The translations under genes and the position numbers were made by a program. A stretch of 64,000 nucleotides of DNA from Opitutus sp. (GTDB taxonomy: Bacteria > Verrucomicrobiota > Verrucomicrobiia > Opitutales > Opitutaceae). The DNA lies in assembly GCA_013821985.1 (NCBI GenBank), contig PNJQ01000002.1, positions 1-64,000 of the forward strand. Direction: 5' to 3'. This document shows positions 43,799 to 58,261 of the stretch, in pieces (position 1 is the stretch's first letter; each line of letters starts with the position of its first letter). Under the pieces are notes generated by a model. That model saw only the letters and a list, made by a program, of their open reading frames with translations. It was not told the DNA's origin and ran no database searches.

Positions 43799-44044
43799 CT
43801 AGCGGCGGAAAAGAGCGCCAGGTTCCACGCGCAGCGCTTTCGCGAGCGCCCAGAGCTCATAATCGAGCACGTAGCGATTCCCGTTTTCGATCCGGCCGAC
43901 GGCCGATCGGTCAAGTCGGACACCTTGAGCGGCCAGTTTTCCAGCTAGATCCTCGAGGGTCACGGCAGGCGTTTGAGCGAGTCGCAGAACACGAAGCCGG
44001 TCGCCGATCATATTGCGCGTCGAAAGATCAGCAGTCTTTTTCAT
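43799..44044 (-). CDS. XRE-family helix-turn-helix repressor
   Basis: This is an 81-residue DNA-binding protein with the XRE layout: RNMIGDRLRVLRLAQ, then VTLEDLAGKLAAQGV as the first helices and VGRIENGNRYVLDYELWALA as the recognition and packing helices. It ends ALRVEPGALFRR. It is divergent from the first recombinase gene. A palindrome abuts its start codon exactly, and a copy abuts the start of the recombinase gene, so it most likely represses both. Small lone XRE repressors of this kind are common in mobile elements. Confidence 0.88.
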   Translation of the reverse strand: MKKTADLSTRNMIGDRLRVLRLAQTPAVTLEDLAGKLAAQGVRLDRSAVGRIENGNRYVLDYELWALAKALRVEPGALFRR

Positions 44045-44059
44045 GGGTGGAATTCACCC
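44045..44059. promoter_or_regulatory. Palindromic operator 1 next to the repressor gene start
   Basis: GGGTGGAATTCACCC, immediately adjacent to the CAT of the minus-strand XRE gene. The half-sites GGGTG and CACCC are inverted, and the motif recurs at 44091. TTGACT at 44061-44066 could be a -35 element of the opposing promoter. Confidence 0.7.
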
Positions 44060-44090
44060 GTTGACTTTACCCGATGCGCAGGTTCGATGT

Positions 44091-44105
44091 GGGTGGACTT
44101 CACCC
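44091..44105. promoter_or_regulatory. Palindromic operator 2 next to the recombinase gene start
   Basis: GGGTGGACTTCACCC, 14 of 15 bases identical to operator 1, immediately adjacent to the ATG at 44106. The two sites are centred 46 bases apart. The GGTGG part may double as the ribosome-binding site, so repressor binding to DNA would cover the initiation region. Confidence 0.7.
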
Positions 44106-45413
44106 ATGAAACAGAATCCTCAGGCGACTGACTCTTCCACCAAGGAGGAGGGTGCGGTGCCGGCAAGAGGGGGCACGGTGCCGTGCTTCGTCGAGCAGTC
44201 CCTTGTGGAAGATGCGTTCAGGTCGCGATTGCGCGACGCCCATTTCCATCGCTTCGGTTTCCAGCCCACCGCAGCGGAACTTGATGTGATGGTCCGCAAG
44301 GAGTTCGCCCTAGCTGCCAAACGCCTCCGTCCAGAATTTTCGAATCGAGCGGAACGGGACGCCGCACCGCAGGCATCTGTGGCCTTATCTGCACCGACAA
44401 TTTTTCCCGACGATCGGCAATGGCAGGATGCAAAGGCGGCGACCGAATACGCGCAGTCGCAAGGCATCGACTCTGTCATGGAAGCGGTTCGTTGGTATCA
44501 ACTCCACCGCGAGTCATTCGAGTCCGCTCCGGACACGGTCCATTGCGTTGACGAGTTCCTTTGTGTGAAGCGGGCGGAAGGCTGCAGTTCAATGACCCTT
44601 GCCGGCTATCAATCGAAACTGAGGCGTTTCGGGGCTGCTTTCGCTCAGCGAAGGCCCGCGGAGATTACCCCGCGAGAGATCGGGTCATGGATTGTCGCCC
44701 AGAGTGCGCATCCCCGCACCCGACTGGATTGGTGGCAGACGCTCCGCACATTTTTTGAGTGGGGAAAACGGATGCGTTTCGTCCACGAGAATCCGGTGCC
44801 GCTCGGCTTGAGCCGGCCCAAGCCTCCCCGCGGCTCGCAACTGGTTTTCACGCCCTTGGAGGTGCGGCGCATTCTGCGACTGGTGCGAGACACCGACCAA
44901 TTGGGATTTTGGGTGCTCGCTGTCTTTGCGGGGCTTCGGACCGAGGAAATCCGGCGGCTGCAGCGCTTCAATCATCGTTGGAATCTCGTCCGATTGCGCT
45001 CGGCGGTGATCGACCTGCCTCACGAGATTGCGAAAACGTATGCTCGTCGCGTCCCAATCTTGCCGGTCCTGCGTCCTTGGCTCGAAATCGTGGCCGCGAG
45101 GCGGCTCCCGTTTTTCCCGCCGAGTCATTACGTGAATTGCCGGCGCCTGCGCAACCGAGTGCTCGCGCCGCGGACGGCTGCATTTGATGAGAAACATCGC
45201 GGCGACCAGTCGAAGATCCCTCCTTCCCGGTGGGCATTCAACATCGCTCGCCGAACTTACATCTCTTACCGGCTGGCCTCGGGCGACGCGAACTATGCCG
45301 AGCTGTCGCACGAGGTCGGCAATTCAGAGGCGATGCTTCGCGAGTATTATGTGCGACACGTCACGAGGGAAGACGCCAAGATTTTCTTCGCGCTAACGCC
45401 CGACCGGATATGA
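44106..45413 (+). CDS. Tyrosine recombinase-like protein A of a recombinase trio
   Basis: This is 435 residues from the ATG at 44106. An N-terminal part (about 1-130) precedes a core-binding-like domain (HCVDEFLCVKRAEGCSSMTL) and the catalytic domain. The first Arg is in VFAGLRTEEIRRLQ near 278 and a Lys in HEIAKTYARRVPI. Box II reads NIARRTYISYRL near 382, with Asn where HxLRH has the first His and Arg where it has the second. Then comes VGNSEAMLREYY, with Asn replacing the His of the usual LGH and the nucleophile Tyr near 413. Its stop overlaps gene B by 4 bp (ATGA). Confidence 0.85.
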   Translation: MKQNPQATDSSTKEEGAVPARGGTVPCFVEQSLVEDAFRSRLRDAHFHRFGFQPTAAELDVMVRKEFALAAKRLRPEFSNRAERDAAPQASVALSAPTIFPDDRQWQDAKAATEYAQSQGIDSVMEAVRWYQLHRESFESAPDTVHCVDEFLCVKRAEGCSSMTLAGYQSKLRRFGAAFAQRRPAEITPREIGSWIVAQSAHPRTRLDWWQTLRTFFEWGKRMRFVHENPVPLGLSRPKPPRGSQLVFTPLEVRRILRLVRDTDQLGFWVLAVFAGLRTEEIRRLQRFNHRWNLVRLRSAVIDLPHEIAKTYARRVPILPVLRPWLEIVAARRLPFFPPSHYVNCRRLRNRVLAPRTAAFDEKHRGDQSKIPPSRWAFNIARRTYISYRLASGDANYAELSHEVGNSEAMLREYYVRHVTREDAKIFFALTPDRI

Positions 45414-46420
45414 GCCGCGCATTGGGTATTCCGCGGAGCGGGAGCCAAACTCTTTCCGCCGCCGATCAGAGGCTGGCGAAGGAAGCGAGGGCAGGGGTGT
45501 GCTGCGCGGCGAGCGACAACGAATCCTTGGTCTCGGTGTTGCGCTGGTATGTCCGCACCGGACGGCCGCTGCTCCACGCTCCGACGCTCCAAGTTTGTGT
45601 GGAAGAGTTTCTCTGGTCGAAACAGGAAGCTAATTTGCGGCAGTGCACGATCGAATGTTATCGCTCGCGATTGGTCCGGTTCGCCGAGCGCTACGCCGAC
45701 TGGTTGCCGGTTTCGCTGACGAGCGACGAGGTGGTGACGTTTCTCGGGCAGCACATCCATCCCACCACGCGCCTCGGCTGGATCCACACTCTTTCTGCGT
45801 TCTTCGAATGGTGCGTCCGGCAGCATTACGCGCTCGCCAACCCGCTCGCCGGAATTGCCCGGCCGCGCAGCGTGGGCCATCGCGCAGGGATCTTTGAGCC
45901 CGATGAGGCGCGCGAGATCCTCCGGCAGGTGCGCTCGACCCGGCAGCTCGGATTCTGGGTGATGTCGCTGTTCGGTGGAATGCGCACGGTGGAGATTCAG
46001 CGGCTGGCCGGGAATCCGGCGCCGTGGCAGCAGGTCCGGCTCAGCGACGGCGTCATTGAGATCCCGGAGGACCAGAGCAAGACCGCGCGGCGTACGATGG
46101 AAATCCGCCCGCAATTGCGGGCCTGGCTGGAAGTGATGCGCGACGAAGGCGTCCCGTTCTATCCCACTGGGGCTCGAACCGCCGAAATCGGACGCGTGCG
46201 TCGCCACGTTTTGCGCCGGTCGCGGGGCGACAATCCGCCTGCTGCAGAATTCAACATGGGGCGACGGTCCTTCATTTCGTATTCCCTCCGTCTGTCCGGG
46301 GCGAGCTACGCCGCGGTCGCCGCCATCGCCGGCAACAGCGAGAAGATGATTCGCAAGTTCTACCGCCGGCCGGTGTCCGCGAAAGCGGCCAGCGACTATT
46401 TTCAAATCTGGCCCGAATGA
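45410..46420 (+). CDS. Tyrosine recombinase-like protein B of the trio
   Basis: The 336-residue product lacks the longer N-terminal part of A and C. The core-binding region is in CVEEFLWSKQEANLRQCTIE and the catalytic domain follows. The Arg is in FGGMRTVEIQRLA near 192, the Lys in DQSKTARRTMEI, and box II reads NMGRRSFISYSL near 284. Then comes AGNSEKMIRKFYRRP with the Tyr near 317. Asn and Arg again replace the two histidines of the HxLRHT box, and Asn replaces the LGH histidine. It overlaps A at its start and C at its stop by 4 bp each. Confidence 0.85.
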   Translation: MSRALGIPRSGSQTLSAADQRLAKEARAGVCCAASDNESLVSVLRWYVRTGRPLLHAPTLQVCVEEFLWSKQEANLRQCTIECYRSRLVRFAERYADWLPVSLTSDEVVTFLGQHIHPTTRLGWIHTLSAFFEWCVRQHYALANPLAGIARPRSVGHRAGIFEPDEAREILRQVRSTRQLGFWVMSLFGGMRTVEIQRLAGNPAPWQQVRLSDGVIEIPEDQSKTARRTMEIRPQLRAWLEVMRDEGVPFYPTGARTAEIGRVRRHVLRRSRGDNPPAAEFNMGRRSFISYSLRLSGASYAAVAAIAGNSEKMIRKFYRRPVSAKAASDYFQIWPE

Positions 46421-47754
46421 CTCGACCCCCAAAACTCGTGCCGAGCTTTCTCGACCAAGCTCGCCTCGAACGGCTCCTTCGGGAAGTCTACCGACGGACG
46501 CACCGCGAGGTGCATGGCGCGGAACCCGAGCCCGAGCAACTCGCGGCGACCGTTCAGCGGGAAATCCCACTCCTGCAGGAGACTCTGGGCGAAGACTTCC
46601 TGCTGCGGCTGACCGAGCCGCAGTTGCCGCGTCCGGAGCGGCCGCCGGACCTGCCCGAGGACGGTTCATTCACCTTCGCTTGGCTCACCCCGGCGCAGCG
46701 TCAGGAGGCCGAAAGCGCCTTGTGGTACGCAAAGCTCCACGGGATCGACTCCATCGTGGCCGTCCTCGAATGGCACCGAGTCTGCAATCGCGCCGCCCTT
46801 GAGGCTCCGCCGCTCCGGGCCTGCATCGATCGCTTCCTAGTCGCCAAGCGCAGCGAGCGTCTGGCGCCGCTCACGGTGCGCAACTATGCGCTGCGCCTGG
46901 AGCGATTCGCGGCGCGCTTTGGCGATCGGTTGCCCGGCTCGGTCACGGCGCAAGAACTCAACGGTTATCTGGAGGCGTGGCCGCAACCGACGACCCGCGC
47001 GAGTCATTGGCTCACCGTGGCGGCCCTCTTCACCTGGTTGTTGCGCCAGCGCTACATCCTCCGCCATCCCTTCGGTGAGGGCGCGCGTCCGCCGCCGCGC
47101 AAGCCGTCCGCGCGGGTAATCTTTACGCCGGAAGAGACAGCCACGATCCTGCGCTCGAGCCTCGAACGCGACACGGCCGGCTATTGGGCCCTGTCGCTTT
47201 TCGCAGGGTTGAGGGCCTGTGAGCTGCAACGCCTGCAGGAGCTCGCGGACCCGTGGGCGGCCGTGGACTGGAAGCAGGGCACGCTCGATCTGAGTTCCCC
47301 GCGAGTGGCTGCCCGCCCTAACCGCCGGAAATTGAAGTTGGTTCCGTGTGCCCTCGCGTGGCTCAGGTGGATGAAGGAACGAAATGTGCCCTTCTTTCCC
47401 GCCAATTCCTGGGAAAAGGTCGGGCGCATGCGCGCCCGCATTCTCGCGGTCCGCACCGCATCCTCCGCGGCCGGATCCGTCGGGACGGGCCTCCAAAAAA
47501 AAGCGCACGGACTCGAACTCAACGGACAACTGGTCTACGGGATGGCGCGGCGTTCCTACCTGTCTTACCGGCTGGCCTTGGAGGAAGGAGGCCCGACGGG
47601 CTCGGCCTTGGTGGCCGATGAGGTGGGACTCACGGAGCGGTTGCTGCGCGCCGACTACGCTGGCAAGGCCGCGCGGGCGGAAGCGCTGCGCTACTTTGCT
47701 TTGGCGCCGAAAGCCTTGGGAGAGCCGGTCGTGGCCTCGGGGAGTGGGGACTAA
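46417..47754 (+). CDS. Tyrosine recombinase-like protein C of the trio
   Basis: The 445-residue paralogue has the same long N-terminal part as A (RREVHGAEPEPEQLAAT matches HRFGFQPTAAELD in A by position). The core-binding region is in CIDRFLVAKRSERLAPLTVR and the catalytic Arg in FAGLRACELQRLQ near 265. Box II reads GMARRSYLSYRL near 377, and the following segment is EVGLTERLLRADYAGK, with Leu at the LGH position. It is the most diverged of the three and may be a structural partner rather than active. It ends about 15 bp before the regulator gene. Confidence 0.82.
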   Translation: MTRPPKLVPSFLDQARLERLLREVYRRTHREVHGAEPEPEQLAATVQREIPLLQETLGEDFLLRLTEPQLPRPERPPDLPEDGSFTFAWLTPAQRQEAESALWYAKLHGIDSIVAVLEWHRVCNRAALEAPPLRACIDRFLVAKRSERLAPLTVRNYALRLERFAARFGDRLPGSVTAQELNGYLEAWPQPTTRASHWLTVAALFTWLLRQRYILRHPFGEGARPPPRKPSARVIFTPEETATILRSSLERDTAGYWALSLFAGLRACELQRLQELADPWAAVDWKQGTLDLSSPRVAARPNRRKLKLVPCALAWLRWMKERNVPFFPANSWEKVGRMRARILAVRTASSAAGSVGTGLQKKAHGLELNGQLVYGMARRSYLSYRLALEEGGPTGSALVADEVGLTERLLRADYAGKAARAEALRYFALAPKALGEPVVASGSGD

Positions 47755-47768
47755 TCTAGGGTTACGCC

Positions 47769-48458
47769 ATGCTGGAAATGCAGCAGGGGGAGGGCCAAAA
47801 GATTCCGATGGGTTTAATTCATTTTGAATTGAACATCGGGGAAACGCCTGATGGGGTCACCGGACTGCAATTCGGGCTCCGGGCGGCAGAGTTACACACA
47901 CCCTTGGCATCAACGCTTCATCCTCCTCCGAGTTCCGCACCGTCGCTAGCCGACGCATTGGTGCGCGCGTCTGGCCGCGGGGCAGAGGTGGTCATCTTCG
48001 AGCGGCGAGTGGTGGATTTTTTTGTGAGTGCCGCCGACCTCCTCGGGGTCCCAAAGTCGGTCGCGGCTATCTACGGCATCGTCTTCGCGTCTCCCCGGCC
48101 GCTCAGCTTTGCCGACATCGAAGGTCGGCTCGACATCAGCAAGGGCTCCATCAGCCAAGGGCTGCGCGTGCTGCGCGAGATGGGCGCTTTGAAGGAAGTT
48201 TCCTCTGCCGCAGATCGCGCGGAGTTGTTCACGCCGGATTTAGAGCTGCGCAAGCTGGCCAGCCAATTTCTTGAACGTCGTCTGGGAAAGCAGCTGACCG
48301 CTGGCAGCACGAAGCTAGCGGCGCTTAATAAGGTCGTTCCCGGTTCGAATACTGAAGCCGCCGAATTGAAGAAGCGGCTGAAGGCGCTCTCGGATTGGCA
48401 CAGCAAAGCAAAGTCACTCCTGCCCGTGGTTCGCACGATCCTGAAGATCACGGGTTAG
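47769..48458 (+). CDS. GbsR/MarR-like winged-helix transcriptional regulator
   Basis: The 229-residue protein has a poorly ordered N-terminal 60 residues and then a winged helix: VPKSVAAIYGIVFASPRP, FADIEGRLDISKGSISQGLR and VLREMGALKEVSSAADRAEL. A charged helical C-terminus follows (AAELKKRLKALSDWHSKAKS). The HTH and wing are of GbsR/MarR type. It heads the polysaccharide locus, where such regulators are commonly placed, and may control it. A decayed second copy of its C-terminal half lies at 50098, with closely similar sequence. The start at 47769 is provisional. Confidence 0.8.
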   Translation: MLEMQQGEGQKIPMGLIHFELNIGETPDGVTGLQFGLRAAELHTPLASTLHPPPSSAPSLADALVRASGRGAEVVIFERRVVDFFVSAADLLGVPKSVAAIYGIVFASPRPLSFADIEGRLDISKGSISQGLRVLREMGALKEVSSAADRAELFTPDLELRKLASQFLERRLGKQLTAGSTKLAALNKVVPGSNTEAAELKKRLKALSDWHSKAKSLLPVVRTILKITG

Positions 48459-50097: not shown

Positions 50098-50377
50098 TGC
50101 GCGAGGTGGGAGCCTTGAAGGAAGTTTCGACGGCCGCGGACCGTGCCGAGTTGTTCATGCCCGACTTGGAAATGCGCAAGCTCGTTGGACGCTTCATCGA
50201 GAGTCGATTGGAGAAGCAGCTCACTGCTGGTAGGACGCGTTTGACGCCCTCGGCAAAGCCGTGCCCGGCAACAACGGCGAAGCCGCCGAGCTGAAGATGC
50301 GGCTCAATGCTCTCTCGGATTGGCACAGGAAAGCAAAACCCCTGCTGCCGATTTCTACGCCCATCGAAGGTCGATAG
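50098..50377 (+). pseudogene. Decayed C-terminal half of the GbsR/MarR-like regulator
   Basis: REVGALKEVSTAADRAELFM, then LEMRKLVGRFIESRLEKQLT match the intact regulator at 47769 (REMGALKEVSSAADRAEL, LELRKLASQFLERRLGKQLT). A frameshift follows, and the other frame gives GKAVPGNNGEAAELKMRLNA and LSDWHRKAKPLLP before a stop at 50375. The N-terminal half and the HTH are absent. The fusion with the cupin fragment is in frame at REV. It suggests an old copy of the regulator once headed the pse genes. Confidence 0.75.
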
Positions 50378-50398: not shown

Positions 50399-51415
50399 AT
50401 GGACAAAATACCAGCCAAATCTATACTCGTCACCGGTGGCACCGGTTCCTTTGGCAAAGCCTTCGTCAGGTCAATCCTAACCGACCACCGAGAAGTGGAG
50501 CGTATTGTCGTGTATTCTCGCGACGAACTTAAGCAGTTCGAAATGGCGCAGGATTTCCCGCAGTCGAAATATCCGCAGATGAGGTATTTTATCGGCGACG
50601 TGCGCGACGGTTCCCGTTTGCGCCGGGCCTGCGAAGGCGTGGATACCATCATTCACGCCGCTGCCCTGAAGCAGGTGCCTGCCGCGGAGTATAACCCCAT
50701 GGAGTGCATTCTTACCAACATCCATGGCGCGGAAAATGTCATCAACGCCGCCCTCGACTCGAATATCCATAATGTAGTGGCGCTATCCACGGACAAGGCG
50801 GCTGCGCCGATCAATCTATACGGTGCAACCAAGCTTTGTTCAGACAAACTTTTCGTAGCGGCAAATAACATCAAGGGCGCGCGGTCACTACGTTTGTCGG
50901 TGGTCCGCTACGGAAACGTCATGGGTTCGCGCGGCTCCGTGATTCCCTTCTTCCTGAAGAAGCGCAGGGAGGGCGTGCTGCCCATCACGGATGCAAAGAT
51001 GACCCGCTTCAACATTTCCCTGCATGAAGGCGTGGGCATGGTCCTGCACGCCCTGCGAGTCTCCATGGGCGGCGAGATTTTCGTGCCGAAGATCCCTTCC
51101 TACCGGATCACGGATGTAGCGACGGCCATCGCGCCAGAATGTCGGCAGGAAATTGTCGGAGTTCGGCCAGGTGAAAAGATTCATGAGGAAATGATCACGT
51201 CCTCGGACTCCTTCACGACGGTGGACCTAGGTGCCTATTACGCCATTCTCCCGCAGACTCACCGCTACACGACGGAAGATTACTGCAAGATGACCGGAGC
51301 CAAGCCGGTCCCGCAGGGATTCACCTATAATTCGGGCACCAATACCGACTGGCTCACAGCGGAGCAGATCCGAGAGTTGATCCGCGTGCACGTCGATTCC
51401 TCCTTCAAGGCCTGA
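50399..51415 (+). CDS. pseB: UDP-N-acetylglucosamine 4,6-dehydratase (inverting), PseB-like
   Basis: PseB makes UDP-2-acetamido-2,6-dideoxy-L-arabino-hexos-4-ulose, the first intermediate of pseudaminic-acid-type sugars. The 338-residue SDR has KSILVTGGTGSFGKAFVRSI, the polar RDELKQFEMAQDF, VVALSTDKAAAPINLYGATK with the Tyr-Lys pair near 141-145, KLFVAANNIKG and VRYGNVMGSRGSVIPFF. These are typical of the inverting PseB/FlaA1 group; WbjB/CapE enzymes of L-FucNAc routes are close relatives. It is the first of six genes that run closely in one direction and resemble a nonulosonic acid operon. No PseC follows. Confidence 0.92.
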   Translation: MDKIPAKSILVTGGTGSFGKAFVRSILTDHREVERIVVYSRDELKQFEMAQDFPQSKYPQMRYFIGDVRDGSRLRRACEGVDTIIHAAALKQVPAAEYNPMECILTNIHGAENVINAALDSNIHNVVALSTDKAAAPINLYGATKLCSDKLFVAANNIKGARSLRLSVVRYGNVMGSRGSVIPFFLKKRREGVLPITDAKMTRFNISLHEGVGMVLHALRVSMGGEIFVPKIPSYRITDVATAIAPECRQEIVGVRPGEKIHEEMITSSDSFTTVDLGAYYAILPQTHRYTTEDYCKMTGAKPVPQGFTYNSGTNTDWLTAEQIRELIRVHVDSSFKA

Positions 51416-51420
51416 GTGCG

Positions 51421-52302
51421 ATGTCCGAAGTAGTAATACTCGGCGCTCGCTCGTGGATTGGCTTCCGCCTGACGGAAGCATTTGCCCGGGCGCGGCCGGA
51501 ATGGCGCGTGCTGGGCACGTCGGCCGTGGCGCCAGCCGTATTCCCCTCAGGGGTTCCGGCTTTGCCGACTCTGGTTGCGGCCAGAACCACCGCTGAAATC
51601 TCCGCGCTGGTGCGTGCGCAGAGACCGCGGGTAGTGATTAACTTGCTGCGGGGAGAGGATGAGAATGACCGGTCCATCCATCTCGCGGTGGCCCGAGCCT
51701 GTTCCGAGGCTGGCTGCCGCTATCTCTATGCCTCCTCCGTGCTGGCGCTGGACGGCTACACGTTGGGCGGTCCGCTTGCCGAGGATCTCCCGGCTCGGAG
51801 CGTAACACCTTACGGGCAGTTCAAAGGTAGCTGCGAAGCGGTCTTGTTGGAGGAGTTCACTCGCGGCGATTGGCAGATTCTGCGCTTCGCCTCAATCCAA
51901 GGGTGGTCGCCATGGAAGCCATCGCGCAACGAGGCGTTTCTCCGTAAAATCGTGGCGGGAACGCCAGTGGTGGTTGATGTCGGCGTCAGGCAAAATCGCC
52001 TGCAGGACACGGTGTTCGCGGCTGCCGTCGTCGACGTGGCGTTGTGCGCCGAGTGCCAAGGAGTGTTTCACTTTGGCGCCGACGATTTTAGCGACGAGGT
52101 TGATTTTCTTCGAGCGGTGGCCTGGGCTTTCGGATTGGACGGAGCGCTGGTTCGGCCCGGGGTGCGCCGCGAAGTGAATTTATCCGTCTCGTGCGAACGC
52201 CTCCACGCTGTCACGGGCAACCGCTGGCGCCGCCTGGAGGCCGAAACGCTGACGGGCCTGCGAACGGAGCCGGGTTTGATCGCCTGCCTAGCGAGCCGTT
52301 GA
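51421..52302 (+). CDS. RmlD-like short-chain reductase, candidate 4-keto-sugar reductase
   Basis: The 293-residue extended SDR is 6 bp after pseB. It has EVVILGARSWIGFRLTEAF, with Ser replacing the middle Gly of the GxxGxxG nucleotide motif, VVINLLRGEDENDRSIHLAV, LYASSVLALDG with the Ser and VTPYGQFKGSCEAVL with the catalytic Tyr-Lys. RmlD-like reductases reduce 4-keto nucleotide sugars, as WbjC/CapF do after WbjB/CapE. PseB makes just such a 4-keto sugar. The usual partner PseC, an aminotransferase, is not seen. Substrate assignment is inference. Confidence 0.75.
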   Translation: MSEVVILGARSWIGFRLTEAFARARPEWRVLGTSAVAPAVFPSGVPALPTLVAARTTAEISALVRAQRPRVVINLLRGEDENDRSIHLAVARACSEAGCRYLYASSVLALDGYTLGGPLAEDLPARSVTPYGQFKGSCEAVLLEEFTRGDWQILRFASIQGWSPWKPSRNEAFLRKIVAGTPVVVDVGVRQNRLQDTVFAAAVVDVALCAECQGVFHFGADDFSDEVDFLRAVAWAFGLDGALVRPGVRREVNLSVSCERLHAVTGNRWRRLEAETLTGLRTEPGLIACLASR

Positions 52303-52338
52303 AACTCTCGTTTCTCCCTGAAACGTGCCATCCCTGTC

Positions 52339-53520
52339 ATGAGCGACATCACCATCCAAGGACGTAAAGTTGGACCGGATAGCCCGGTCTATTTCATCGC
52401 GGACGTGGCCTCGAACCACTGCGGCTCCCTCACCAAGGCCAAGGAACTTGTGCACGCCTGCGCGGAGTCGCGGGTGGACGCGGTGAAGATGCAAAACTTC
52501 GAGGCTGAAACCATAGTGTCCGACTACGGTTTCAAGAATCTGGCCGGACTTAAGACGCACCAGTCAGGCTGGAAGCAATCTGTTTTCGATTCCTACAAGG
52601 CTGCGTCGATTCCCCTAGAATGGACGATGGAGCTCAAGGAGCTCTGCGATCGGCTTGGGCTGCATTACATGACGTCACCATATTCGGTGGAGTTGGTCAG
52701 GGCCGTGGCGCCGCACGTATGTGCCTTGAAGCTTGGTTCGGGCGACCTGACCTGGCACGAGGAAATCGAGGCGATGTGCGCTTCCGGCAAGCCGGTGCTG
52801 ATCGCGACGGGCGCCTCAACCATGGCGGAAGTAGAGGGCGCCATGGCGGCCGCGTTACGCCACACGGCTCAAGTGCTCCTCATGCAGTGCAATACCGAAT
52901 ACACTGCCCGGGTTGGTGAAACCCGCGAGCAGCGGTTGGATCGATTCCGCCACATCAACCTCCGGGTGATCGAAACATATGCCAGCCGCTGGCCGGGCGT
53001 GCCCATTGGCCTGTCCGACCACACGCACGGAGAGATGACTGTGCTGGGCGCGGTCGGCCTGTTCGGCTGTTGCGCCGTGGAAAAACATTTCACCTTCGAC
53101 AACACCATCGAGGGTCAGGACCACGGTTTCTCCATGACGCCGGCTTCCTGGAAGCGAATGGTCGAACGCACTGAGAAATTACAAGAAACGCTCGCGGCCA
53201 GCAAGGCGGTGACATTTGCCGATCGCCTTAAGGTTACCCGCACCCAGGTGGATGATCCTGAAGGACTTGAGCTGGCGGTGGGCGATGGGGTTAAGCGCAT
53301 CGAGGACAACGAGGCTGGGACGGTCATTGTGCAGCGCCGCGCGGTTCGCGCTCGCCAAGAACTGCCGGCCGGTCATCGGGTCGCTCTGGAAGACCTCATC
53401 GTTTTGCGCCCTTGCCCGCTGGGGGCACTGCCGCCTTATCGCGCCAGCGAGCTTTTGGGTCGGACGCTGGCGCGACAGGTTCGCTCTGGCGACTGCGTGC
53501 GACTGGATGATTGTGTCTGA
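52339..53520 (+). CDS. pseI: Nonulosonic acid synthase, NeuB/PseI family
   Basis: The 393-residue protein has the NeuB barrel: VYFIADVASNHCGSLTKAKE near residue 16, SRVDAVKMQNFEAETIV, LEWTMELKELCDRLGLHYMT split, LKLGSGDLTWHEEIEAM near 130, IATGASTMAEVEGAM, GLSDHTHGEMTVLGAVGLFG near 225 and CAVEKHFTFDN with the metal-binding His. The C-terminal SAF/antifreeze-like domain (ARQELPAGHRVALEDLIVLR) is present. It condenses a 6-carbon sugar with PEP to make a nonulosonic acid. The exact sugar is not readable. It is in the pse-like operon. Confidence 0.9.
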   Translation: MSDITIQGRKVGPDSPVYFIADVASNHCGSLTKAKELVHACAESRVDAVKMQNFEAETIVSDYGFKNLAGLKTHQSGWKQSVFDSYKAASIPLEWTMELKELCDRLGLHYMTSPYSVELVRAVAPHVCALKLGSGDLTWHEEIEAMCASGKPVLIATGASTMAEVEGAMAAALRHTAQVLLMQCNTEYTARVGETREQRLDRFRHINLRVIETYASRWPGVPIGLSDHTHGEMTVLGAVGLFGCCAVEKHFTFDNTIEGQDHGFSMTPASWKRMVERTEKLQETLAASKAVTFADRLKVTRTQVDDPEGLELAVGDGVKRIEDNEAGTVIVQRRAVRARQELPAGHRVALEDLIVLRPCPLGALPPYRASELLGRTLARQVRSGDCVRLDDCV

Positions 53521-53529
53521 AACGCCCGC

Positions 53530-54009
53530 ATGCACACCGCCTATGACAACCCCTATGCCTCCGATCCATTGCGCGGGGCTATTTGGGAAATGTGCGTGCG
53601 GAGGGACCTAGAGGCCTTCCTGACGGCCGATTGGAATATCTGCGCGGGAGACTTTGTGGACGAGGGCTTCGTCGGCTGGAATGCGCATTTCGTATCGGAT
53701 TCAATGAAATGGACCGTCGGATTCCCGACATTAACGGCTTACCGCGAAACGTGGCTGAGTGACGCACGGGCGTTTGCCGCCAAAGTTTGGGCAGCTGACA
53801 CGAGGGAGCGCCTTTATCGTGCGCTTACCCTAGCGCGCATCGATTTCGCTTCGGATTCGATCCTAGTGCACAAACGCTTCGATGGCGCACTGTACCTGAC
53901 TGACGGAAGTGAGCAGACGCTTCGGTGGCAGAGCCTCTTTGTTTTGCGCCGCATTGGTGGTCGCTGGAAGCAGGCGGGATTTATAGGCTACTTGCCGTTT
54001 TCCAAATGA
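53530..54009 (+). CDS. SnoaL-like / NTF2-fold protein
   Basis: The 159-residue protein has no signal peptide and shows the cone-shaped NTF2-type layout: an N-terminal helix (IWEMCVRRDLEAFLTADWN), a middle with FVDEGFVGWNAHFVSDSMKW, and a C-terminal beta sheet with TLRWQSLFVLRRIGGRWKQA. Members of the fold include isomerases, hydratases and structural subunits, so function is open. It lies between the synthase gene and the pseG-like gene, its stop overlapping the latter's start (ATGA). A role in the sugar pathway is likely. Confidence 0.7.
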   Translation: MHTAYDNPYASDPLRGAIWEMCVRRDLEAFLTADWNICAGDFVDEGFVGWNAHFVSDSMKWTVGFPTLTAYRETWLSDARAFAAKVWAADTRERLYRALTLARIDFASDSILVHKRFDGALYLTDGSEQTLRWQSLFVLRRIGGRWKQAGFIGYLPFSK

Positions 54010-55085
54010 GTAGCGCTCAGACCACTTCCACCGCTGGCCTGCCCACGCTTTTATTCCGGGCGGACGCGGGGATGACGATCGGCACGGGTCACGTGATGAG
54101 GGGAATTGGCCTAGCGCAGCAATGGCAGGATTTGGGTGGTCGAGCTGTGATGCTGATGGCAACGCCGAACGAGGCTATCGCGTCCCGGTTGCAACGCGAA
54201 AAAATCTTGGTGGAAGTCATCGATGCTGCTCCAGGCACGCCGGCCGATGCCGTGGCCACGGTGCGTGCAGCACGGCGTTTTTGCGCCGATTGGATCGTTG
54301 TTGATGGTTATGCGTTCGACACGCCATGGCTCGCCCGGGTTGGGGAGGGCGGTATTCCGCTGGCTCTGTGGACGGACTATGTGCAGGCGGCGCGCTTGCC
54401 GGTTTCCCTGTTGCTCAATCAAAACCCTCATGCCAGCGAGAGCGAATTCCGCGCTGTGGCGCCCGATGCGAAGTTGTTGATCGGACTGAACTATGCCGTG
54501 CTGCGGCGGGAGTTTCGGGTCCGCGCGGATCGGCGGCGGGAGCGCAGCGCGGGAGTGCGGCAGTTGCTGGTGACGCTGGGCGGATCCGACGCGGTGAACG
54601 CCACGCGGACCGTGTTGGAGGCGCTAGCCTTGCTTGGGCCCGCCGTGCCCGCGACCACGGTTGTGGTCGGCGCGAACAATCCACGGATGGAGGAGCTGGG
54701 CTCGCTGGCCCGCAATATCCCCGGGGCTGACCTGCGGCACGACGTCAAGGACATGGGTGAATTGATCGACCGCTGCGACCTTGCGCTATCGGCGGCGGGC
54801 GCCACGTTGTGGGAATTGGCCTACCTAGGGGTGCCCGCGCTGGCCACGGTTCTCGCTGACAATCAAGTCCCCCTTGCCGCGGCGGTAGGTACCGCCGGTG
54901 CCGGGATCGACCTTGGTTGGAACCATGCGTTGAATCCGGAGCGTCTCGCGAGCTTGTTGTCCAGCGTCCTGGCGGATCGCCAGCGGGTGGCGGTCATGAG
55001 CCGAGCCGCCCTAGGGTTGGTGGACGGACGGGGAGCGGAAAGGGTTTGTGCCGCACTCGCGGCGCAAGGCGCCCGCAAAAGCTAA
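54006..55085 (+). CDS. pseG: PseG-like UDP-sugar hydrolase
   Basis: PseG releases UDP from UDP-2,4-diacetamido-2,4,6-trideoxy-L-altrose before condensation by PseI. The 359-residue product starts at the ATG at 54006 and reads PTLLFRADAGMTIGTGHVMR near residue 13 with the catalytic region GxGHVMR, LLNQNPHASESEFRAVAPDA, LVTLGGSDAVNATRTVLEAL near 180 and LALSAAGATLWELAYLGVPA near 259. These match the PseG/MurG-like GT-B fold. It may accept a modified substrate if PseC is truly absent. It overlaps the SnoaL-like gene by 4 bp. Confidence 0.9.
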   Translation: MSSAQTTSTAGLPTLLFRADAGMTIGTGHVMRGIGLAQQWQDLGGRAVMLMATPNEAIASRLQREKILVEVIDAAPGTPADAVATVRAARRFCADWIVVDGYAFDTPWLARVGEGGIPLALWTDYVQAARLPVSLLLNQNPHASESEFRAVAPDAKLLIGLNYAVLRREFRVRADRRRERSAGVRQLLVTLGGSDAVNATRTVLEALALLGPAVPATTVVVGANNPRMEELGSLARNIPGADLRHDVKDMGELIDRCDLALSAAGATLWELAYLGVPALATVLADNQVPLAAAVGTAGAGIDLGWNHALNPERLASLLSSVLADRQRVAVMSRAALGLVDGRGAERVCAALAAQGARKS

Positions 55086-55099
55086 ATCACGCCTAGTTC

Positions 55100-55759
55100 A
55101 TGCTCATTATCCTTCAAGGACGCGTCCGTTCAACCCGATTGCCCGCTAAGGGGTTCCTGCCCTTCTTTAATCAGGTGGTTTGGGAGCGAATGTGCGACAT
55201 CGCGCTGGCGGTGCGCGGCGCTGAGCAGATTGTTTTTGCGACCGGCGATGCGCCGGAAAACCAAATCGCCAAGCCCCTGGTCGAGGCGAAAGGCATCCGT
55301 TTTTTTTCAGGCAGCGAGGAAAACGCGCTCGATCGCTTTTGCCGGGTGGCCGAGACCAGCACGTCGGAATACATCGTGCGCATCACCTGCGACAACTACT
55401 TGGTTCAGCCTGAAGTCATCGAAGGGCTGTTTGCCGCCGCCCGCGAGGCGAGGGCCGACTATGGCTATGTGGCTCCGCTCTCGCATTACGCGGGTGAGGT
55501 CATCCGCCGCGAGACCCTGCTCGCGGGCTGGCGGGCGGGAAGTTATTCGGCCCTCGCGCGCGAGCATATCACGTGGGACATCCGCGAGAATGCGGCGATT
55601 TCGCGGGTGGTGCTGCCCGAGGATTACTTGGCCCTGGATCACGAGCACAGCGTCACTCTCGATACGGTCGACGATTTCGTCCGCATGAAAAAGCTGGAGC
55701 AAACCATGCCTGGTCTCCGGCCGGTGCGCTGCCTCGAGGCCGTGCGCGGCATTCGTTGA
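55100..55759 (+). CDS. pseF: Cytidylyltransferase, SpsF/PseF-like
   Basis: The 219-residue enzyme has the nucleotidyltransferase loop ILQGRVRSTRLPAKG near residue 4 (usually QARxxSTRLPGK), CDIALAVRGAEQIVFATGDA near 33, FFSGSEENALDRFCRVAE and VRITCDNYLVQPEVIEGLF near 96. EDYLALDHEHSVTLDTVDDF near 175 is the usual ending. PseF attaches CMP to the nonulosonic acid. The SpsF family includes transferases of similar sugars, so the exact nucleotide is inferred from the neighbours. It follows the pseG-like gene by 14 bp. Confidence 0.88.
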   Translation: MLIILQGRVRSTRLPAKGFLPFFNQVVWERMCDIALAVRGAEQIVFATGDAPENQIAKPLVEAKGIRFFSGSEENALDRFCRVAETSTSEYIVRITCDNYLVQPEVIEGLFAAAREARADYGYVAPLSHYAGEVIRRETLLAGWRAGSYSALAREHITWDIRENAAISRVVLPEDYLALDHEHSVTLDTVDDFVRMKKLEQTMPGLRPVRCLEAVRGIR

Positions 55760-55779: not shown

Positions 55780-57414
55780 ATGTCATCGTCCGTTTCCAAC
55801 CTGGCCTTGCGACTCAAGCAGGACCTTCCTGCGACCGTCGCCCGTGTTTGCCTAGCCTTAGGGGCGAAGCCGCAATCCCTCCTGCGGGGCAAGCGGTTTG
55901 CCGAGGCGTGCCTCATCGGCTCCTTCGCCGCGTTGAAACGCTCGCCGGTGGCCGTGCCCGCCGAACCGCCGCTACGGGTCGTTTTTTTCACGATGCTCGG
56001 CAGCCATTCTTTCATGACTGGCACGGAGCTGGCCCTTGCGCGGGCCATGCGCAACCGTGGGCATGAAGTGCATGTGGTGCTTTGTGATGGGATCCTGCCT
56101 GCGTGCGAGAACCGCAACACTGGCAATGCGGACAATTGGGACCTGGTCTGCCGCAAGTGCGCCTTGCGCGGGCGCGGCATGGCAGGGGCGGCCGGCATCA
56201 CTACACACTTCTTTTCCGACTTGGTCGCGGCAGCCAGCGATGCCGAGGCCGACCGCCTGATCGAGGCGGAGGACTTCAGCTATATCGTGGAGAGCTCCCT
56301 TTATAAGTTCTTCCGGGTGGGCCGACTGGCAGGCACTGCGGAGGAGAAGGAGCAGGGGCGCCGCATCGAAGATGCCTGCCGGCTGACGGCGCGCGCCGCC
56401 ATCGCCCTCTCCCGCCTCGCGCCTGATCGCGTGCTGATGAGCCACGGCGTCTACTCTTCCTGGGCTCCGGCGCTGCAAATATTCAACCACCTGGGGATTT
56501 CCACGGCCGTTTATAACAAGGGCAAGCGCCGCAACTCCGGCGTCATCAACTGGGTCAAGGGCGCCATGGACTGGGATGTCTCCCGTGAATGGGAACGCGT
56601 GAAGGATAGGGAGCTTTCCACTGCCGAACTCGCCGCCATCCAGGATTACCTCGCGAGCCGCGTTACGCACAAGGGCGACGCCCTAAAATACAATTTCGGC
56701 GAGAAAGAGGAGCGGGAGCAAACGCTCAAGCGCTTTGACCTCGACGCTGCCAAGCCCATATTCGTGCTCTTCACGAACGTGCTCTGGGACGCGGCCAGCG
56801 CGCAGAAAGAGATCGCATTCCCGAACGCGGTGGAATGGGTCATGGAAACCATCCGCTGGTTTGCCGCCCACCCGGACAAGCAGCTGGTGGTGAAGATCCA
56901 TCCCGCCGAGGTGGTGATCGGCACGAACCAGCCGTTTGTGCGGGAAATCGAGCGGATCTTCCCGCAGTTGCCCGAAAACGTCCGAGTCATCGCGCCACAG
57001 GAAAAGGTCAACTCGTGGTCGATAACCCAGATCACCACCGCCGGCCTGGTGCACACAAGCACGCCCGGCATGGAGTTGCCGCTGGAAGGCGTGCCGTGCA
57101 TCGTGGTTTCGGGGGTGCACTATCGTGGCAAGGGCTTCACCCTGGATATCGGCTCGCGAGAAGAATACTTCCGCATGCTTGACCGGTGGGAGGACGTGGT
57201 AGTGGATCGCGAACGCTGCAAGCGTTCCGCCCTGCGTTACGCGCACCTGCTTTTTGAGCGTTACCATCTCGATTGGTCCTTCTTGATCGAGCGAGGATAC
57301 GGCCGCTACGTCGCGATCAATGCTCGCAGCGACGCGGAGCTGGCCGCTCATCCCACGGTGAAACTGGTATGCGATTCCCTAGAAAGACAAAATGATTTCC
57401 TGCGGGCGAATTAA
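55780..57414 (+). CDS. Capsule-polysaccharide-type glycosyltransferase
   Basis: This is 544 residues from the ATG at 55780. From about residue 65 it shows LRVVFFTMLGSHSFMTGTEL, and in the C-terminal half PIFVLFTNVLWDAASAQKEI, VVKIHPAEVVIGTNQPFVRE and ITTAGLVHTSTPGMELPLEG, which is the signature of KpsS/LipB- and surface-carbohydrate-synthesis GT-B transferases. Such enzymes add a Kdo or sugar to a polysaccharide chain. Its position after the pseF-like gene makes a nonulosonic acid transferase attractive, but this is not shown. It starts 20 bp after the previous stop. An extended upstream frame was rejected. Confidence 0.8.
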   Translation: MSSSVSNLALRLKQDLPATVARVCLALGAKPQSLLRGKRFAEACLIGSFAALKRSPVAVPAEPPLRVVFFTMLGSHSFMTGTELALARAMRNRGHEVHVVLCDGILPACENRNTGNADNWDLVCRKCALRGRGMAGAAGITTHFFSDLVAAASDAEADRLIEAEDFSYIVESSLYKFFRVGRLAGTAEEKEQGRRIEDACRLTARAAIALSRLAPDRVLMSHGVYSSWAPALQIFNHLGISTAVYNKGKRRNSGVINWVKGAMDWDVSREWERVKDRELSTAELAAIQDYLASRVTHKGDALKYNFGEKEEREQTLKRFDLDAAKPIFVLFTNVLWDAASAQKEIAFPNAVEWVMETIRWFAAHPDKQLVVKIHPAEVVIGTNQPFVREIERIFPQLPENVRVIAPQEKVNSWSITQITTAGLVHTSTPGMELPLEGVPCIVVSGVHYRGKGFTLDIGSREEYFRMLDRWEDVVVDRERCKRSALRYAHLLFERYHLDWSFLIERGYGRYVAINARSDAELAAHPTVKLVCDSLERQNDFLRAN

Positions 57415-57655: not shown

Positions 57656-58261
57656 ATGCCCCCCATGTCCGCTTTGCCACAAAAAAAACACCAGGGCCTC
57701 CCGGTCATCGGTTCACCCTCGGGGGCTTGGGGTGCACGCGCTGCCATTTTAGGACTCTATCTTTTTAATCGGTGGTTTTCCTTCTTCCCGTTTCATGCCC
57801 CGCGACTGTGGATTATCCGGCGCATGCTGGGCAGCATAGGGAAGTTTCCGAGCATCCTCATTGGCTTGGAGGTTCGCTCGCCAAGGAATATTCATCTGGG
57901 TGACTACGTGGTACTCAATCGCGGCGTGCTGCTGGATGGCCGCGGAGGGCGGCTGAGCATTGGTAACAACGTGGACATTGCCCAGGACGTGGCGATTTGG
58001 ACCTTGGAGCACGATGTCCACGACGACTTACACCAGACCCGCGGAGCAGAGGTGCACATCGAGGACTACGCGTGGATCGGTTTCCGGGCGGTGATCATGC
58101 CAGGGGTCAAGGTCGGACGAGGCGCGGTGGTCGCTGCGGGGGCGGTGGTGACGCGTGACGTGCCCGCAAAGGCGATTGTGGGCGGGGTGCCCGCCAAGCG
58201 AATCGGCGAGCGCCGGAGCGAACTGAAATACCAGAATAACCATCGCCCTTGGTTCCAATAG
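57656..58261 (+). CDS. Hexapeptide-repeat acyltransferase
   Basis: The 201-residue protein starts with a hydrophobic segment ([19 protein letters not shown]) and then a left-handed beta helix: [89 protein letters not shown] contains the likely catalytic His. It resembles the O-acetyltransferases of polysaccharide clusters (WbbJ/NodL type), likely acting on a sugar hydroxyl. It follows a gene-poor gap and precedes the flippase. Confidence 0.88.

Follow-up and report, generated by a model that had tools for sequence, protein, structure and literature searches.

The window analysed here, a 64,000-nucleotide stretch of Opitutus sp. DNA, comprises bases 1-64000 of a 112 kb contig (C2) in a 3.74 Mb assembly of 117 contigs. 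It contains a cassette of six plus-strand open reading frames (ORFs; 50399-55759) predicted to direct the synthesis of a nonulosonic acid, encoding in order PseB, an RmlD-like short-chain dehydrogenase/reductase (SDR), a NeuB-family synthase, a 159-amino-acid (aa) protein, a PseG-like hydrolase and an SpsF-like cytidylyltransferase (Table 1). The first-pass annotation, made from the DNA alone, described this gene order as very compact, and the computed distances bear it out: 5 bp separate PseB from the SDR, 36 bp the SDR from NeuB, 9 bp NeuB from the 159-aa gene and 14 bp PseG from SpsF, and the 159-aa and PseG genes overlap by 4 bp. A seventh gene, for a capsule-type glycosyltransferase, starts 20 bp past SpsF. 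As had also been noted, neither pseC nor pseH is present in the run.

Recurrence of the cassette across genomes

An alignment of the NeuB sequences of the window and of a Maritalea plasmid was used to scan one genome per species (84,980 species). The best 80 loci were kept, so more cassettes may exist. Six loci stand apart among these 80, with NeuB identities of 58-74%; the next locus is at 48%. They belong to a Verrucomicrobiota metagenome-assembled genome (MAG; locus L029), an Arenicellaceae MAG (L030), two Mucilaginibacter genomes whose cassettes are near-identical to each other (L031 and L033), a Flavobacteriaceae MAG (L032) and Fulvivirga kasyanovii (L034), and their phyla are Verrucomicrobiota, Pseudomonadota and Bacteroidota. 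In all six the SDR gene lies directly 5' of NeuB, and the 159-aa protein and then PseG follow NeuB. PseB lies directly 5' of the SDR in five; the contig of F. kasyanovii begins within the SDR gene. A cytidylyltransferase is likewise present in five of the six: homologues 65% and 47% identical to the window SpsF lie downstream in the Verrucomicrobiota and Arenicellaceae MAGs, weaker ones lie 5' of pseB in the two Mucilaginibacter loci and the Flavobacteriaceae MAG, and none was found on the short F. kasyanovii contig. The glycosyltransferase has homologues in five of the six other cassettes (26-60% identity). Since the core recurs in at least six other genomes, the gene order is not a product of chance, and the idea of a cassette confined to a single assembly was rejected.

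The cassette SDR is rare. The possibility that it is common in its own phylum was considered and rejected, as the only match among 387 genomes is the source genome itself. Among 395 genomes from the phylum of one cassette seed (G389), 14 matched the SDR profile, and two of the 395 have the cassette form (both Mucilaginibacter, seeds included); the other 12 matches are weaker and have no PseB or NeuB within 1.5 kb on each side. In the phylum of a further cassette seed (G388), the seed alone matched among 398 genomes, and a tblastn search with the SDR returned no match in plasmids and phages. This rarity, scattered over phyla, suggests horizontal spread.

The NeuB of the cassette falls below both equivalog cut-offs, scoring 192 bits against the 400 required for NeuB_NnaB and 171 against the 340 required for PseI (TIGR03586), and is the single NeuB match in its genome. 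In a tree of 33 NeuBs, the seven cassette sequences form one clade with 100/100 support. The tree also included 19 of the 74 remaining loci of the best 80 (L035-L108; hereafter the second tier, a non-random sample picked by the window and Maritalea NeuB patterns). Cassette and second-tier NeuBs together are parted, again at 100/100, from six PseI/NeuB sequences of other clusters, a split for which the program warned of long branches between the PseI sequences and the rest. Position 22 (window numbering) is Asp in all seven cassette NeuBs and in all 74 second-tier sequences. Six of seven other sequences have Glu there, the seventh being that of Maritalea, and Glu also occupies the equivalent position in SpsE and in a PseI of known structure. 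The comparison of substrate pockets that the first-pass annotation had proposed was made by sequence alone; it shows Asp for Glu at this NeuB position and a retained GH motif in PseG (H29 in the window protein).

Downstream of the cassette lie a hexapeptide acetyltransferase, a MurJ-like flippase, two glycosyltransferases and a Wzy-type protein, and because these come next, the cassette is regarded as part of a surface polysaccharide locus. On the other side, three successive integrase-like ORFs (44013-47754) show tyrosine-recombinase-like motifs by eye and may be a recombinase trio; none of the three has a Pfam match at E ≤ 0.001. A MarR-like regulator (47769-48458; weak Pfam matches) lies near the 5' side of pseB, and a degenerate partial copy of it (about 50098-50337; 73% over 243 bp) lies just 5' of pseB.

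Table 1. Genes of the cassette and two neighbouring genes, in window coordinates (UDP, uridine diphosphate; CMP, cytidine monophosphate; GlcNAc, N-acetylglucosamine)
Feature	Length (aa)	Coordinates	Strand	Evidence
pseB, UDP-GlcNAc 4,6-dehydratase, inverting type	338	50399..51415	+	TIGR03589; motif STDKAAAPINLYGATK
RmlD-like SDR, proposed UDP-4-keto sugar reductase	293	51421..52302	+	conservation of the cassette SDRs, triad, model fold
NeuB-family nonulosonic acid synthase, separate clade	393	52339..53520	+	PF03102 190 bits; tree
NTF2-like protein	159	53530..54009	+	conservation among cassettes; model fold
PseG-like UDP-sugar hydrolase	359	54006..55085	+	TIGR03590; alignment to 3hbm
SpsF-type CMP-sugar cytidylyltransferase	219	55100..55759	+	PF02348 64 bits
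Capsule-type glycosyltransferase, possible CMP-sugar user	544	55780..57414	+	PF05159 Capsule_synth 22.7 bits, cut-off 20
Hexapeptide-repeat acetyltransferase, possibly modifying the same sugar	201	57656..58261	+	PF00132 41.6 bits

PseC, PseH and the RmlD-like SDR

The genome-wide search for PseC and PseH that had been called for was negative at the curated cut-offs. In the source genome, which is 79% complete, PseC (TIGR03588) scores at best 247 bits (cut-off 423.5) and PseH (TIGR03585) at best 33 bits (cut-off 93); in the six other cassette genomes, neither family exceeds its cut-off (0 of 6 for each). As a yardstick, the PseCs of three plasmid pse clusters (two annotated as pseC, one as DegT) score 468, 568 and 562 bits. 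The source genome has five full-length DegT genes, the best of which reaches 247 bits to PseC. When these five and two PseC-like sequences were used as queries, none matched any of the six cassette loci at E ≤ 1e-3.

A control set was drawn from 13 plasmid loci with PseG. Two were excluded, one (L025) with a lone PseG and no PseB and one (L125) whose cluster crosses the record start, leaving 11 loci with PseB and PseG, three of which had supplied the PseC references. PseC is present in all 11. Three SDR references, searched at E ≤ 1e-5 with 30% of the reference covered, matched in none of the 11; L127 and L155 have annotations of other SDR genes. In the loci examined, PseC and the cassette SDR are therefore mutually exclusive, as expected if both use the PseB product.

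The SDR directly following pseB had been described as having an intact triad, and this holds throughout: the six other cassette SDRs are 36-49% identical to that of the window, and S105, S106, Y131 and K135 are invariant in all seven, as part of a Ser/Thr, Tyr-x3-Lys triad that is common to other SDRs too. The cassette SDRs also have an SSxLALDGY stretch. Sequence matches to the reductase family are weak (24 bits to rmlD; 23.6 bits to Pfam RmlD_sub_bind, below the cut-off of 27). The structural model (predicted local distance difference test, pLDDT, 88.6) has Klebsiella RmlD (8ctr) as its best structural match (Z 27.9, root-mean-square deviation (rmsd) 2.2, 266 residues aligned), and RmlD reductases make up seven of its first ten matches. 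The modelled fold fits a 4-ketoreductase without proving that activity.

The remaining cassette proteins can be assigned with varying precision. PseG passes TIGR03590 (194 bits, cut-off 154), aligns with Campylobacter jejuni PseG (3hbm) and is the only PseG match in its genome. Two of the six other cassette PseGs exceed that cut-off and four score 136-151 bits. At E ≤ 1e-10, PseG has a single match in each of these six genomes, at a position fitting the cassette, so PseG does not serve a second pathway there. The last gene had been labelled pseF; its assignment is refined to SpsF-like, the PF02348 match standing and PseF not being among the NCBIfam matches listed for it. The 159-aa protein had been called SnoaL-like. 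Neither Pfam nor NCBIfam gives a match for it at E ≤ 0.001, and its model (pLDDT 92.4) has an NTF2-like fold (Z 12.7 to 3rob, rmsd 3.1, 125 residues aligned, with many ties). It is conserved in all six other cassettes at 34-53% identity, with many invariant aromatic residues; as a guess from the modelled fold, sugar binding or isomerase action would fit.

Predicted pathway and competing readings

With moderate confidence, we interpret the cassette as a PseC- and PseH-independent nonulosonic acid pathway, in which the 4-keto sugar made by PseB would be reduced, not aminated, to give a 7-hydroxy 3,5,9-trideoxy nonulosonic acid. The first-pass annotation had proposed just such a reduction, with a hydroxyl in place of the second amino group, and as a genetic reading it is well supported: no PseC or PseH exceeds its cut-off, the SDR is in the same place in all cassettes, and the predicted product type is known from another bacterium. 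The reactions and their stereochemistry are predicted as follows. PseB, judging from its family, would convert UDP-GlcNAc to UDP-2-acetamido-2,6-dideoxy-L-arabino-hexos-4-ulose. The SDR would then use NAD(P)H to reduce the 4-keto group of this intermediate; the resulting UDP-2-acetamido-2,6-dideoxy-L-hexose would most likely have the L-altro configuration. PseG would strip the UDP, NeuB would add phosphoenolpyruvate and SpsF would form the CMP sugar, which the capsule-type glycosyltransferase may transfer; the NTF2-like protein would be a conserved accessory, perhaps an isomerase. The pseudaminic acid pathway turns C4 of the hexose into C7 of the acid, so the reduced PseB product would carry its hydroxyl at C7. 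The predicted product is a 5-acetamido-3,5,9-trideoxynonulosonic acid of the fusaminic acid type, with a calculated mass of 293.111 Da vs 334.138 for Pse5Ac7Ac.

The window PseB scores 521 bits to the PseB equivalog TIGR03589, well over the cut-off of 408 for this inverting family, and is 72.6% identical to a Synechococcus NIES-970 PseB that adjoins a PseC (562 bits). These matches make it improbable that PseB acts here without inverting C5, in which case the SDR would make a sugar of the N-acetylquinovosamine (QuiNAc) or N-acetylfucosamine type and the product would be a D-series, 9-deoxy sialic-acid-like compound. For the FnlA equivalog (TIGR04130, the CapE/FnlA dehydratase-epimerase), the score is 239 bits, below the cut-off of 730. 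Sequence similarity is nevertheless a poor guide, as Pdeg of Bacillus cereus is 46% identical to PseB and has no 5-epimerase activity, so a PseB-like enzyme may not invert C5 (PMC4514872).

Several observations weigh against reduction of the PseB product. For the SDR, the top single-sequence match in the PDB is a UDP-GlcNAc 4-epimerase (6wjb, E 0.003), and in a profile search another UDP-GlcNAc 4-epimerase (3m2p, E 8e-8) precedes RmlD, which is second (3e-6). Unlike Pfam RmlD_sub_bind, Pfam Epimerase is passed (23.4 bits, cut-off 20.9). Structurally, RmlD has an equal in the dehydratase 6bi4 (Z 27.6), with epimerases no more than about 2 Z behind, and Foldseek, ranked by E-value, places human MAT2B first and an RmlD sixth. 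The glycine motif of the SDR (GARSWIG) also departs from the usual GxxGxxG, with Ser replacing the middle Gly. The SDR could thus act as an epimerase or in tailoring, either at a different carbon or once NeuB has acted, leaving C4 (C7 of the acid) as keto, amino or another group; the cassette would still be without PseC, with a product other than the simple 7-hydroxy acid. The NTF2-like gene, which suggests an extra step, would agree with this. The SDR lies, however, directly after pseB and before neuB in all six loci that show both (the window and five others), and RmlD reductases predominate among its first ten structural matches. We consider this alternative unlikely, if the most credible of those weighed here.

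Other points on the same side concern the second amino group. The window PseG shows no sign of a changed substrate, because it is 34% identical to the PseG of a PseC cluster. Divergent PseCs can fall under the cut-off, as indicated by a haloarchaeal DegT that adjoins NeuB and scores 382 bits. Contig C2 itself encodes a LegC-like DegT some 20 kb downstream (near 75.3 kb), and in the Verrucomicrobiota MAG the contig with PseG also has two DegTs (303 and 337 bits), at distances from PseG of about 10 and 42 kb. The hexapeptide acetyltransferase two genes downstream of the cassette has 56-57% identical homologues downstream of three of the six other cassettes (L031, L033 and L034). It is conceivable, then, that a 5,7-diamino sugar is made by another aminotransferase, such as a divergent DegT encoded elsewhere, and an acetyltransferase of GNAT or hexapeptide type, with the SDR in a side role. 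Against this, both Mucilaginibacter cassette genomes have no DegT at E ≤ 1e-60 to PseC, the seven DegT/PseC queries match none of the six other cassette loci, and no common aminotransferase partner is visible. We judge this explanation a shade less probable still than a non-inverting PseB.

The source genome's incompleteness is the last such point concerning the missing genes. An ordinary pseudaminic acid pathway whose PseC and PseH were lost from view through incomplete assembly is very improbable, given that both are absent from all six other cassette genomes, in three phyla, and that the SDR stands in the place of PseC.

The DegT near 75.3 kb was also considered as a PseC candidate and rejected; its best match is the LegC family, at 340 bits, under the cut-off of 420. 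At 75.3-79.2 kb of C2 (L021:15315-19174), this LegC-like aminotransferase, a phosphoglycosyltransferase and a CapD-like dehydratase are encoded in series. Because the latter two adjoin it, the aminotransferase more likely belongs to an initiating-sugar module, and the trio probably makes a diamino initiating sugar for the same polysaccharide.

A chemical counterpart of the predicted reduced product is known. The O-antigen of Fusobacterium nucleatum 25586 contains QuiNAc, 2-acetamido-2,6-dideoxy-L-altrose and fusaminic acid, the last being 5-acetimidoylamino-3,5,9-trideoxy-gluco-nonulosonic acid, tentatively L-glycero-L-gluco (PMC13014188). The dideoxy-altrose would be the sugar expected from PseB and a 4-ketoreductase. 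That fusaminic acid is tentatively gluco, not manno, counts against a simple correspondence, and a match requires a difference at C4 as well. It is at C4 that gluco differs from the manno configuration of pseudaminic acid, and the synthase determines this centre, so the product could be fusaminic acid or its C4 epimer. A 2020 paper mentions one trideoxy compound as reported and states that the gene cluster for fusaminic acid had not been investigated (PMC7371886). A 274 Da flagellin sugar of Shewanella was dropped as a precedent because it has two nitrogens (PMC3765264). The records of Fulvivirga kasyanovii JCM 16186 and Mucilaginibacter sp. MD40 are not labelled as MAGs, so the prediction is probably directly testable.

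The wider PseB-SDR-NeuB family and known systems

The second tier shows a related arrangement. An RmlD-like SDR lies at most 1.3 kb upstream of NeuB in 60 of the 74 loci (at most 150 bp in 54), 16 of the 74 having less than 3.5 kb of sequence before NeuB. A PseB-like gene (at least 200 bits) is found in 52 of the 74 fetched stretches, and a PseB-like gene together with the upstream SDR in 46. A PseC-like gene (at least 250 bits) occurs in one of the 74 loci, and PseC exceeds its cut-off in four of the best 80 genomes. PseG exceeds its cut-off in three of the 34 second-tier genomes searched, that search having taken in 40 of the 80 genomes. A profile comparison relates the second-tier SDRs to that of the cassette (hhalign probability 99.7, 16% identity), and an aldo/keto reductase or its fusion with SpsF is found in 25 of the 74 loci. 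The taxa include Psychrobacter, Pseudobdellovibrio, Acidimicrobiia, Chloroflexota, Lachnospiraceae, Gemmatimonadetes, Omnitrophota and a Methanolobus MAG; in the SAR11, SAR86 and Cyanobium loci, PseB and the upstream SDR were not both seen. Within the best-80 sample it is thus common for PseB, SDR and NeuB to be arranged together with no PseC and, mostly, no PseG; the product of this arrangement may differ from that of the cassette.

On the Maritalea myrionectae plasmid (L026 and L027), PseB, an epimerase-type SDR and NeuB are scattered over the locus, PseC and PseG are not annotated, and a cytidylyltransferase/aldo-keto reductase fusion and an alpha-2,3-sialyltransferase lie across the record start. 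In a viral collection, contigs (L128-L147) bear NeuB genes with 38-43% identity to those of the cassettes.

Tentatively, and with less confidence than for the cassette itself, we suggest that there might be a reductive branch of nonulosonic acid synthesis, widespread in bacteria and perhaps present in an archaeon, in which PseB, an RmlD-like SDR and a separate-clade NeuB make 7-hydroxy 3,5,9-trideoxy sugars. In that case these sugars would form a large family with fusaminic acid as its first known member, and the window cassette would be the PseG-keeping form beside a commoner form mostly without PseG.

Nonulosonic acids occur on bacterial surfaces and take part in host Siglec binding, and they are usually predicted from genes as neuraminic, legionaminic or pseudaminic acid (PMC7371886). 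Annotation would tend to name clusters such as this one "pseudaminic acid" because pseB and pseG bear those names. If the proposed pathway is true, ketone reduction in place of aminotransfer would add a further predictable product class. The cassette supplies candidate genes for fusaminic-acid-type sugars and could explain how rare hydroxyl-bearing sugars arise. In the literature consulted on this gene arrangement or on fusaminic acid genes, mostly titles and the beginnings of abstracts, no description of it was recognised.

Among known systems, the pseudaminic acid pathway (PseB-PseC-PseH-PseG-PseI-PseF) shares with the cassette the PseB and PseG families, a NeuB-family synthase and a CMP-sugar synthetase. 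The cassette differs in having no PseC or PseH, a NeuB that falls under the PseI cut-off and in another clade, an SpsF-type enzyme for PseF, and the added SDR and NTF2-like protein. A 4,6-dehydratase gene followed by an SDR reductase gene is found in WbjB-WbjC and CapE-CapF, which are UDP-4-keto-N-acetylhexosamine (HexNAc) reductase pairs. Such pairs feed UDP-6-deoxyHexNAc sugars, whereas the sugar of the cassette would proceed to PseG and NeuB. In the Sps legionaminic acid pathway of Bacillus subtilis (SpsM-C-D-G-E-F), SpsC is an aminotransferase. That pathway resembles the cassette in its UDP-linked precursors and in SpsG, SpsE and the putative cytidylyltransferase SpsF, but unlike the cassette it needs SpsC and the putative acetyltransferase SpsD (PMC7439481). 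Pdeg-Preq of B. cereus has the same order of a dehydratase gene and an SDR reductase gene, the UDP-GlcNAc 4,6-dehydratase being followed by an NADPH-dependent 4-reductase (PMC4514872). Fusaminic acid of F. nucleatum 25586, for which the likeness is one of chemistry only, belongs to the 5-acylamino-3,5,9-trideoxynonulosonic acid class with a hydroxyl at C7 that is predicted for the cassette product, and the predicted hexose occurs in its O-chain. Set beside these systems, the cassette appears to be a novel variation on nonulosonic acid biosynthesis, one for which a plausible chemical counterpart is known.

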